Positions 58,695-60,864 of a stretch of 64,000 nt of DNA are shown here, piece after piece. The notes beneath the pieces are model-generated. The model was not told the DNA's origin and ran no database searches. It saw nothing but the letters and a program-made list of their open reading frames with translations. Source of the DNA: Prochlorococcus sp. HOT208_60m_808G21 (GTDB lineage Bacteria; Cyanobacteriota; Cyanobacteriia; PCC-6307; Cyanobiaceae). Position 1 is the first letter of the stretch. Every line of letters begins with the position of its first letter. Made by a program: the position numbers and the translations under genes. The DNA is taken from NCBI GenBank assembly GCA_002026015.1, contig MWOY01000126.1:1-64000 (forward strand), read 5' to 3'.

Positions 58695-58767
58695 GCCGGG
58701 ATAGCTCAGTTGGTAGAGCAGGCGACTGAAAATCGCCGTGTCCCCAGTTCAAATCTGGGTCCTGGCA
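58695..58767 (+). tRNA. tRNA-Phe(GAA)
   Basis: The 73-nt cloverleaf begins GCCGGGATAGCTCAGTTGG, with anticodon loop CTGAAAA (anticodon GAA) and T-loop AGTTCAAATCTGG. Its 3' part and downstream hairpin recur at 60191-60241, making this gene the likely attachment site of a small element. Confidence 0.97.
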
Positions 58768-58800
58768 CCTTTAAACCCCGTCCTTGACAGGGTTTTAAAT
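58748..58800. repeat. Direct repeat of the tRNA-Phe 3' end (partner at 60191-60241)
   Basis: The segment starts exactly at the T-loop (TTCAAATCTGGGTCCTGG) and runs through the tRNA end, ACCTTTAAA and the downstream hairpin area TCCTTGACAGGG. The second copy at 60191-60241 shares 18 identical bases, one C-to-T change, nine identical bases, and the last TCCTTGACAGGG. The sequences to the left differ completely. Such a repeat is the hallmark of tRNA-directed integration. It encloses 1.4 kb. In this first copy AAACCC/GGGTTT arms may form a terminator. Confidence 0.8.
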
Positions 58801-58918
58801 TTTTTAAGGATAGAATACAGATGTAGTACATTTGAGATCTCTGAGGAATAGCGCCTTTTAAATTGTTAGTTGATCTATATCCAAATTTCTTCTTTTCATT
58901 AAAAATTAATTACCTAAT

Positions 58919-58954
58919 CTTTTCGAATTTCTTTTCGAATTTCTTATCAAATTC
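58919..58954. repeat. Short 12-bp tandem repeat
   Basis: CTTTTCGAATTT occurs twice in tandem (58919-58942) and a third degenerate unit (CTTATCAAATTC) follows. It is in the gap just after tRNA-Phe and lies inside the tRNA-bounded segment. Confidence 0.6.
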
Positions 58955-58982
58955 TATTTTAAAAACTTAAACGATAATTAAT

Positions 58983-59558
58983 TTAAATTTTTTTAGAGTA
59001 CCTGTCACTCGTTACCCAGTACATAATAATCAACCATGGCAATCCGAAACCTCCTCCGAAAAGGTTTATTAATAAAATCAACCCCTTATCAGGATGCTGT
59101 TGCATATGTGCCATATTGGAAGGCAAAAGAAATATCTGCAAAAGTAAAAAAACAACTAAAGAACCAAAAACTCCAAAACCTAGAATAGTTAGCAATTGGT
59201 CAAAAAATGAAAATTGACTTCCGACTATTACTCCAAAAGCAACAGATATAAATATTGAAAAAAAGAACTGACCTCTGACAACTTTCCAATAACCCTTAAT
59301 TTTGCCATTTGCTTCAGCATTTTTTAGCAAAAAAGATCTACGCGTTTCATAATCAAATAATTCCTTAAAGAGTAATGATTTTTCATTCTTCTCTTTGTAA
59401 TTATTTTCTTTAAATTTTTTCAGAATTAATTGATAGTAATTTTTATCATCTTTATCATTTTTTAACTTAATAAGTTTTAAGATAATTTCTTCAATATCTT
59501 CATTTTTTAAGAAGATAAATTCATCTTCTGAATATGAATAAATTGATTTAATAGGCAC
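58983..59558 (-). CDS. Membrane protein with superinfection-immunity-like C-terminus
   Basis: The 191-residue protein has a charged N-terminal half (YYQLILKKFKENNYKEK) and two or three membrane helices (about residues 100-118, 124-145 and 160-180). Its end, AHMQQHPDKGLILLINLFGG followed by FGLPWLIIMYWVTS, has the H-P...LN...G...PW...W pattern of the superinfection immunity (Imm-type) family. The match is suggestive, not certain. The gene is inside the segment flanked by the tRNA-Phe repeat. Confidence 0.62.
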   Translation of the reverse strand: MPIKSIYSYSEDEFIFLKNEDIEEIILKLIKLKNDKDDKNYYQLILKKFKENNYKEKNEKSLLFKELFDYETRRSFLLKNAEANGKIKGYWKVVRGQFFFSIFISVAFGVIVGSQFSFFDQLLTILGFGVFGSLVVFLLLQIFLLPSNMAHMQQHPDKGLILLINLFGGGFGLPWLIIMYWVTSDRYSKKI

Positions 59559-59786
59559 AGTATTTGTTAATAAAGAAAATAATTATTTTGTAATTGAAAT
59601 ATAAAATTTTTAAAAAGTCAAATTCATTAGTAGCTCTTTAAAAAATTAGTCTCAGATCATTTTTAAAGAAAGGTACTCTTCAAAAATGCGTTTAAATCCT
59701 TATCATTCATAAATCATATTTCTCCAATTAAAAATTTTTTGTTTAAATTTACTCCTCCTCTAAAATAAATGCATTAATTGAATTTA

Positions 59787-60050
59787 ATGATCTCAAAAAG
59801 AATCTTCATTATTCTTTTTTTGACAATTGCTAATCCTTTATATGCAGTTGCTACAAAACTGACGGAAGAGAAAACATACTGCTTGAGATGGGCAGATAGA
59901 TTCTTATCTATCAAAGATGGTGCAAATTACAGAGAAAATAAAATATCTTCTGCAAAGTTCCCAATGTATGTTGATCTTTGCTTAAAGCATTACGAAGAAC
60001 TAAGAAATATGTATAAAAAAAAGAATCAAGGTGAGTTAAAAAATTACTAA
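59787..60050 (+). CDS. Small secreted protein in the tRNA-Phe segment
   Basis: Starting at ATG 59787 (a TTG at 59778 would add three residues), this is an 87-residue protein with a signal peptide (MISKRIFIILFLTIANPLYA). Its mature part has two cysteines (TYCLRWADRF and DLCLKHYEEL) and a charged tail. It resembles the general type of small periplasmic proteins elsewhere in the window. It lies between the tRNA-Phe repeats. Confidence 0.68.
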   Translation: MISKRIFIILFLTIANPLYAVATKLTEEKTYCLRWADRFLSIKDGANYRENKISSAKFPMYVDLCLKHYEELRNMYKKKNQGELKNY

Positions 60051-60190
60051 TTAAATCTGATGTGATAGAAAGTATCAAATGCACTTTAAAAATCTCATAT
60101 TAATTACAACTGTGTTCACATATTTTCGTACACAATATTCAAATCTTAAATATCCTGCTATAACTAAATACTAACTCCTTAAAAACCTAA

Positions 60191-60241
60191 TTCAAATCTG
60201 GGTCCTGGTACCTTTAAAACCTTCTCCTTGACAGGGCTTTA
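60191..60241. repeat. Second copy of the tRNA-Phe 3' repeat
   Basis: It begins at the T-loop sequence and includes tRNA-Phe bases through the acceptor end and the downstream TCCTTGACAGGG. It lacks any 5' tRNA half, so it is a fragment. One change falls in the acceptor stem (C to T). It closes the 1,443-bp unit begun at 58748. Confidence 0.78.
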
Positions 60242-60297
60242 TACTTTCAAAGCATTGAGGACTCGTTATTTTTCGTATTTTTCATAAATTAAAATTT

Positions 60298-60688
60298 TTA
60301 GTTTTCGACTCTGCAGACTTGACCAATAACACCCAAAATCAGTTTATCTCCATTTGGATCTTCCCAATTAGCTAAATCATTGAAATTACTATTTGCTTCA
60401 TCTATTGAGACATCAACATCTCTAAATGATTTTTCAAAACAATTTATATCCATTGTATAGAGAATATCCTTAGTAATTTCACTTTTTGTTTTTGGAATAA
60501 ATTTACTCAATACTCTTACAGAACCATCCTCATTCCTATTTATACTTTGCCTATCCCATAACTGCTCTCCGTATTCACTTTTAGGGACTCCAACCCATTC
60601 ATGAGGCAAAGCTTCTGATTTTTTTTATTGAAATACAAAAGAAAACGATAATCGAAAGGACTAAATGAATGATATTTCTAAAATACAT
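60298..60688 (-). pseudogene. Secreted protein interrupted by an A-tract frameshift
   Basis: The frame 60298-60609 encodes WVGVPKSEYGEQLWDRQSIN and INCFEKSFRDVDV, a domain of the type seen in secreted surface-adhesin-like small proteins. A signal peptide (MYFRNIIHLVLSIIVFFCIS, from 60688) is encoded just upstream in another frame. It would join through SIKKSEALPHEW if a run of eight A (plus-strand T, 60619-60626) were seven. So the gene is shifted by one base. It may be an error, slippage or decay. Confidence 0.65.
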
Positions 60689-60864
60689 TGAATTTACTTT
60701 ATTTTTATAATTAATCATGGCTACTTATGAAATACAAAAATTTTTATTAGAAGGAAATATAAGAATAAAAATTTGTAAAAATTTTTATTGATTAGTATTT
60801 CTATTATAGATAGAATCAAACATTAAATTAAGAATTTACTTCCAATAAATTTATTAGAAAAATA

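Follow-up and report, generated by a model that had tools for sequence, protein, structure and literature searches.

A recombinase-less 1.4-kb unit at a tRNA-Phe gene of Prochlorococcus, most likely a fossil non-autonomous integrative cassette

Introduction

Prochlorococcus combines a very small genome with a huge gene pool, and its tycheposons are tRNA-targeting cargo elements that bear a tyrosine recombinase. The stretch of DNA studied here (the window; 64,000 nucleotides from contig C31 of the draft genome G000) contains a tRNA-Phe gene whose 3' end recurs a short distance downstream, enclosing a small unit that encodes no such enzyme. How did a unit of this kind come to stand at a tRNA gene? 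The window unit is quite probably a non-autonomous integrative cassette of the tycheposon type. In its present state it is most likely a fossil of such a cassette among tycheposon-like elements, comparable to CIMEs and microCIMEs.

Results

The tRNA-Phe locus and the inserted unit

The initial annotation had claimed that the 3' end of tRNA-Phe, from the T-loop on, and the following hairpin reappear 1,443 bp downstream, which was borne out for the last 22 nt of the tRNA and for the hairpin. A direct repeat with 89% identity and a spacing of 1443 (D4, 58743-58778 versus 60186-60221) is extended through the hairpin by a second one with 76% identity (D1, 58770-58814 versus 60214-60258). The core common to both copies, TTCAAATCTGGGTCCTGG[C/T]ACC, begins in the T-loop, and a genome-wide BLAST search recovered the second copy and its hairpin with E = 3.5e-12. 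Measured from start to start, the unit comprises 1,443 bp and, as is typical of tycheposons, is integrated in a tRNA gene of which a part is repeated at its far end (Table 1).

Table 1. Features of the unit at tRNA-Phe (positions in the window)
Feature	Position	Strand	Remarks
tRNA-Phe(GAA)	58695..58769	+	integration target; 3' end now supplied by the inserted unit
att core, left copy, 22 nt, T-loop to acceptor end	58748..58769	+	
terminator-like hairpin, left end of the unit, in place of that of the host	58770..58799	+	-9.3 kcal/mol versus -16.5 at a typical empty site
putative left arm pair, family A, decayed (ATAGAATACAG, ATGTAGTACAT)	58810..58831	+	offsets +41/+52
frame-broken 3' scar of a 287-aa gene, 111 bp	58870..58980	-	75-76% DNA identity
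191-aa membrane protein with C-terminal Imm_superinfect domain	58983..59558	-	PF14373, E 1.9e-7
87-aa predicted secreted protein	59787..60050	+	signal-peptide-like N-terminus by eye
putative right arm pair, remnant	60109..60133	+	offsets -82/-68; 4 of 11 positions mismatched in each arm
family-A right end	60128..60190	+	including core copy, identity to L137 86%, L123 80%, L034 78%
attR core, displaced host tRNA 3' end	60191..60212	+	one change in the acceptor part
displaced host terminator, decayed	60213..60240	+	-3.3 kcal/mol; 97/200 shuffles fold as well

The locus was compared with 75 tRNA-Phe regions (74 fetched ones, among which are L104 from the window itself and two G053 contigs, plus L015). 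When the window's flanks were joined without the unit, they aligned unbroken over ~1,670 bp to 42 of these 75 Prochlorococcus regions (88.8-96.2% identity). There, a single hairpin lies behind tRNA-Phe, and the same gene stands ~90 bp further downstream. The empty sites include L035 (genome G033), the sister of the window on the tree. A second core copy within 9 kb was found in 14 of the 75 regions, window included; the remaining 19 are split contigs, more divergent sites, or regions in which no second copy could be recognised. The search with the tRNA-Phe query covered two further genome sets, outside which G309-G323 lie; the query matched in 66/80 and 64/80 genomes, and 12 and 8 genomes gave a row for a second copy, in G191 as the sole row. 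Of those 160 genomes, 27 (G251 included) were fetched at tRNA-Phe, mostly because they appeared to be occupied.

Since empty sites are common, the window segment is an insertion. The comparison of strains for an empty site, proposed in the initial annotation, thus yielded single-repeat sites, and the observation that would have spoken against its interpretation (the same content between the two repeats everywhere, with no empty site) is the reverse of what was found, as occupied sites differ in content. That the repeat is a chance similarity or a duplicated tRNA fragment around ancestral content is hardly credible in view of the empty sites, the differing content of the occupied ones, and the replaced terminator.

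Behind the right copy of the core the native sequence continues, and the hairpin behind the left copy is specific to the unit; it can thus be concluded that the unit supplied a new tRNA end and terminator and displaced those of the host. The hairpin brought by the unit folds less stably than that of a typical empty site, and the displaced one folds less stably still (Table 1). The latter folds no better than shuffled sequences, and the acceptor part of the displaced core has one change; the insertion is therefore not recent. The conserved gene to the right of the unit (60298-60720, minus strand) reads as a 103-aa ORF here and as 141 aa in L123; an apparent frame break lies at an A-run in its signal-peptide region and could reflect either genuine sequence change or faulty assembly.

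Diversity of units at the same site

In other species, units of 0.12-8 kb with differing cargo occupy tRNA-Phe. The contents, as named by eye, include TPR proteins, small secreted proteins, a DNA methylase with a helicase, and GSCFA-like genes. Units without any gene were also observed (L034 with 124 bp, L142 with 120 bp, and the 140-bp inner unit of L138), and several sites hold units in tandem (L138 with 1036 + 140 bp, L155, L097, and L100), L097 consisting of a recombinase element followed by a family-B-like end (see below). The 124-bp L034 (tRNA end to +147) looks like a deletion between left and right arm repeats. Reading of the ORFs in the related units (an inspection, as distinct from a profile search) revealed no recognisable conjugation gene.

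Paired repeats at the unit ends

Near both ends, many units carry two ~10-bp repeats separated by 10-14 bp, with the same motif at either end. We infer that these pairs are arm sites of a recombinase, whose binding is putative. Their motifs fall into families A (ATGGAGTACAC), B (TGGAATGTTAG), C (GGTATGGAAG), D (TGCAGTACA), and E (GGTATGGAAC), and further motifs exist. Like those of integrase arm sites, the offsets are near-constant: about +41/+52 and -85/-71 in families A and D, +41/+52 and -90/-79 in family C, and about +131 to +144 and -102 to -122 in families B, E, and the related L074 and L140.

Matched arm pairs at both ends, defined as three or fewer mismatches among the four copies and taken as the mark of the proposed cassettes, were found in 22 of 31 delimited units versus 3 of 1,500 core windows, with settings that had been chosen after seeing the data. 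When ends were swapped between classes as a control, 39/674 combinations passed, the motifs of C and E being alike. The nine units that failed are that of the window, which retains only decayed remnants, as well as L073, L090, L143, L149, L152, L034, L142, and L085 (score 4). Two earlier tests had preceded this one: the first used short windows; the second accepted only motifs made up of four letters, missed those without C, and detected 11/31 units (core control 6/866, shuffled control 0/864). Of 266 genomes, 5 contain an exact family-A arm pair, and all 6 sites in them are at the ends of tRNA-Phe units; the reversed control gave 0.

These data also bear on transport in cis, in which the unit would have travelled as the tandem neighbour of a complete element that has since departed. 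Tandem units do exist at the site, and parts of PMC7563491 describe CIMEs as moving in this manner; however, no second unit was seen in the six family-A loci and the arm pairs match within single units, which makes such accretion improbable for the window unit.

Decay of the window's unit

The ends of the window unit are common to L031, L034, L123, L137, and L139, which are recombinase-less units in five other genomes. Identity to family-A L137 is 81% over the left 64 bp of the unit and 86% over the right 86 bp, which include the core copy; with the core left out, both ends together reach 82% over 129 bp. The left arms differ from ATGGAGTACAC at 3 and 2 of 11 positions, a clear match equalled at 1 of 19,000 window positions. 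The right arms, whose offsets differ by 2 bp from those in L123, L137, and L139 (about -84/-70), are a modest match, equalled at 35 of 19,000 positions in a test that was re-centred on the offsets of the intact members after the first one. With the narrower right offsets first used, all four arms together gave P of about 0.01, with 20 mismatches in the window unit versus 1-2 in intact members. The generic arm test found no matched pairs in its unit.

The initial annotation had listed a superinfection-immunity-like membrane gene and a small secreted-protein gene with no recombinase. ORFs and searches agree with this inventory, which had, however, overlooked a gene scar at 58870-58980. The corresponding gene is intact elsewhere in the same genome (G000:C87:2139-2999); as protein the scar gave only a weak match (13 aa, E 0.044), and its recognition relies on the DNA match. 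From the 111-bp scar and the degraded arm pairs it follows that cargo was lost from the unit and that its sites decayed, and the window copy is probably fixed and immobile now.

Cargo genes

In addition to its Pfam domain, the 191-aa protein matches phrog_1039 ('immunity to superinfection', E 8.5e-6). It has no close relative in 266 genomes, and distant matches in 10 others mainly cover the C-terminal domain. The 87-aa protein showed no Pfam family at E <= 1 and a weak match to phrog_592 (E 0.006), and relatives were found in 3 other genomes of the 266. The homologue in G046 (72% identity) shares 4 nt with the end of a recombinase gene; the one in G274 (76%; 88% DNA identity over 190 bp) lies 29 nt behind an unrelated recombinase gene accompanied by an AlpA-like gene; and a weak one in G251 (34%) is located inside a 7.6-kb family-A unit. 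For three close copies of the gene, dN/dS is 0.14-0.20. As the G046 and G274 homologues stand directly behind recombinase genes, the 87-aa gene travels with recombinases. The two recombinase genes in front of this family (L121 7958-9795 and L122 160-1742) are unrelated to each other. Their arrangement suggests an element-linked function of the 87-aa family, and that the two cargo genes exclude phages would be a guess from the domain name. No PADLOC match was obtained, and the structures obtained in the analysis were weak.

Related recombinases

Searches with eight recombinase queries (tblastn) and a recombinase profile found no recombinase in the window unit. A weak alignment of the L097 recombinase with the N-terminus of the 191-aa protein (23% over 90 aa, E 2.4e-4 in an uncorrected search) was taken as compositional. 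With the same queries and profile, recombinase sequence was detected in 3/31 units, namely L097 (open), L032 (broken), and L083 (fragment); given the 22 arm-matched units, 19 units thus combine matched repeats with the absence of a recombinase. None of the six family-A units has its own recombinase, and the cognate enzyme of the family can therefore only be deduced from a related family.

L097-type recombinases occur in 9/266 genomes at E <= 1e-10, and five of these nine (in G021, G053, G083, G047, and G171) adjoin a displaced tRNA-Phe core. The enzyme of G021 (L097) is open and divergent and belongs to an element delimited at tRNA-Phe, while the frame of that in G171 (L188) is open for 500 codons in an element split over two contigs. 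The 5' part of the G171 gene extends to a right arm pair, TGTAGTACG...TGTAGTACG, with 14-bp spacing and the layout of families A and D. The broken recombinase of L032, a unit with family-D arms, is 44% identical to the G171 enzyme over 404 aa. The right arm pair of the window unit is similar to those of the recombinase loci L188 and L032 and has the same spacing, but belongs to a different sequence family. For the recombinases of L189, L192, and L193 the core is a different one, TTCGAATCTGGGTGCCGCC, and these loci have their own 11-bp pairs; L191 has none. Arm pairs are thus usual beside these recombinase genes, and those of the recombinase-less units are similar to them. By eye, TTCGAATCTGGGTGCCGCC resembles the 3' end of another tRNA, and there is no tRNA gene in those 4-kb loci; cassettes may exist at this core too.

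The recombinase set shares a conserved R / RHT / Y pattern, which we take to be the tyrosine recombinase motif, and aligns with int121 (a Pfam integrase) at 36.5% over 52 aa; on these two grounds its members are called tyrosine recombinases here. L186, L188, L189, and L192 had no Pfam match, L193 had only weak unrelated ones, and a profile of these recombinases matched no PDB chain. A Phage_integrase-domain gene at G000:C11:58101-58523, with an open frame of 386-404 aa in 11/15 genomes tested, is perhaps a host recombinase.

Movement between lineages

Five family-B units (L090, L093, L144, L135, and L100) have one small gene in common and no recombinase. In 7 pairs (L135 and L100 versus L090, L093, and L144, and versus each other), the units are 83.1-91.2% identical over 454-938 bp versus 67.0-72.7% for the neighbouring FGGY genes; examples are L135-L144 (88.8% over 938 bp versus 71.5%), L100-L144 (88.2% over 728 bp versus 67.7%), and the weakest pair, L093-L100 (83.1% over 620 bp versus 67.0%). 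Among close relatives, the difference between unit and FGGY identity is small or negative. Because the identity of the unit exceeds that of the adjacent gene across deep lineages, the family-B unit must have moved without a recombinase of its own. In family A only the pairs with L139 exceed the FGGY gene (L123-L139, 85.5 versus 80.1% over 1,595 bp), while the end identities of the other pairs fall below it, and the argument for horizontal transfer therefore rests on family B.

On an FGGY tree with 98 rows, the six family-A units, on six separate tips, need six changes (six forced), and eleven family-B units need eleven (at least 7 forced). This tree oversamples occupied sites, as later regions were fetched for occupancy, and contains long branches (L142, L135, and L100); shuffles on it show only a lack of label clustering.

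The initial annotation had left two explanations side by side, mobilisation in trans and stripping after integration. In its full form the latter means that a complete tycheposon integrated here with its own recombinase and was reduced by deletion to two cargo genes and both ends. The gene scar, the broken or truncated recombinases at the tRNA-Phe site in G083 and G047, and the ends-only L034 (124 bp) and L142 (120 bp), which look like internal deletions, are consistent with such a history, and the 87-aa homologues behind recombinases in G046 and G274 imply that one may have stood beside the gene here. Yet the window unit holds no recombinase remnant, six recombinase-less family-A units out of six would need six separate losses, and the common family-B unit moved without a recombinase, and we therefore regard this full form of stripping as unlikely. 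Mobilisation in trans, by comparison, is well supported for the class at the level of sequence by matched arms without a recombinase and by a unit common to deep lineages, and is putative for this copy; that this copy was stripped of cargo and sites is in turn supported by its scar and decayed arms. Both processes may thus apply to it, and the minimal tRNA-borne cargo of the initial annotation was largely the right interpretation.

Search in viral sequences

A search for the att core in viral sequences, likewise suggested at the outset, found no exact core in IMG/VR contigs, a set from which records very near the window's genome were possibly left out. No relative of the 191-aa or the 87-aa protein was found in viral contigs or phage records, and the unit DNA had no match in phages. 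The family-A arm pattern matched two viral contigs, both of which were dismissed: the match in L197 is a tandem repeat, and that in L196 lies between terminase- and portal-like genes (by eye) and adjoins a small HTH gene, with no match to the tRNA-Phe core. With these negative results and the Imm_superinfect domain as the only phage-linked match, the unit is not classified as a prophage or phage satellite.

Discussion

In the mechanism that we propose, a tyrosine recombinase made elsewhere would join a circular cassette to the tRNA-Phe gene. The cassette would bear a copy of the tRNA-Phe 3' end as well as arm-type binding sites on both sides, so that its integration would restore the 3' end of the tRNA, bring a new terminator hairpin, and shift the host's 3' end and terminator 1.44 kb downstream. 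The circular form and the action of the recombinase in trans are the steps that we infer.

More tentatively, the tRNA-Phe gene of Prochlorococcus may be seen as a docking platform for families of recombinase-less cassettes with arm-site codes of their own, which exchange cargo and use foreign recombinases in trans, the 1.4-kb unit being a fixed phage-exclusion cassette. If true, this platform would be a site-specific counterpart of integron cassettes. Cassettes of one or two genes and no enzyme would be a cheap means of gene transfer between such cells, and since an arm-site code predicts which recombinase pairs with which cassette, the spread of recombinase-less islands becomes testable.

Comparison with known systems

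Among titles and abstract openings, a set outside which the original tycheposon paper lies, nothing concerned arm sites of recombinase-less Prochlorococcus units. Parts of PMC10872708 describe tycheposons as recombinase-bearing elements of 4-200 kbp. The window unit resembles them in genus and in the tRNA 3' end as target, and open recombinases are present at the site in G021 and G171; it differs in having no recombinase and a size of 1,443 bp, and on both counts it is not assigned to the tycheposons.

The same sections of PMC10872708 report that in Methylopumilus fGI-2 the final 20 nt of a tRNA are repeated and that the islands span 330 bp-42 kb with 1-63 genes; the target there is tRNA-Lys, and these sections give neither arm sites nor an empty-site analysis. 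In Dehalococcoides, the ssrA islands (PMC3146451, in part) have ~20-bp repeats of an RNA-gene 3' end, a tandem layout, and in some cases no integration module. They are alike in repeats and tandem arrangement and differ in using a serine recombinase and a tmRNA target. A Prochlorococcus phage and tRNA-Met provide further background (PMC2784084, in part).

A further parallel is offered by CIMEs and microCIMEs, which according to parts of PMC7563491 retain att sites, lack recombination genes, and measure 1.2-13 kb with cargo and 130-220 bp without genes. The units described here (0.2-8 kb and 120-140 bp) are of similar size, likewise keep their att sites, in most cases have no recombinase, and form tandem arrays, and the window unit itself combines att sites with the absence of recombination genes. 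CIMEs, however, derive from conjugative or mobilizable elements, whereas no conjugation gene was recognised here, and solo movement in trans is proposed instead of accretion. As descent from a conjugative element would be conjecture, the window unit is not filed as a CIME; it works like one, as a decayed, non-autonomous, tRNA-integrated cassette.
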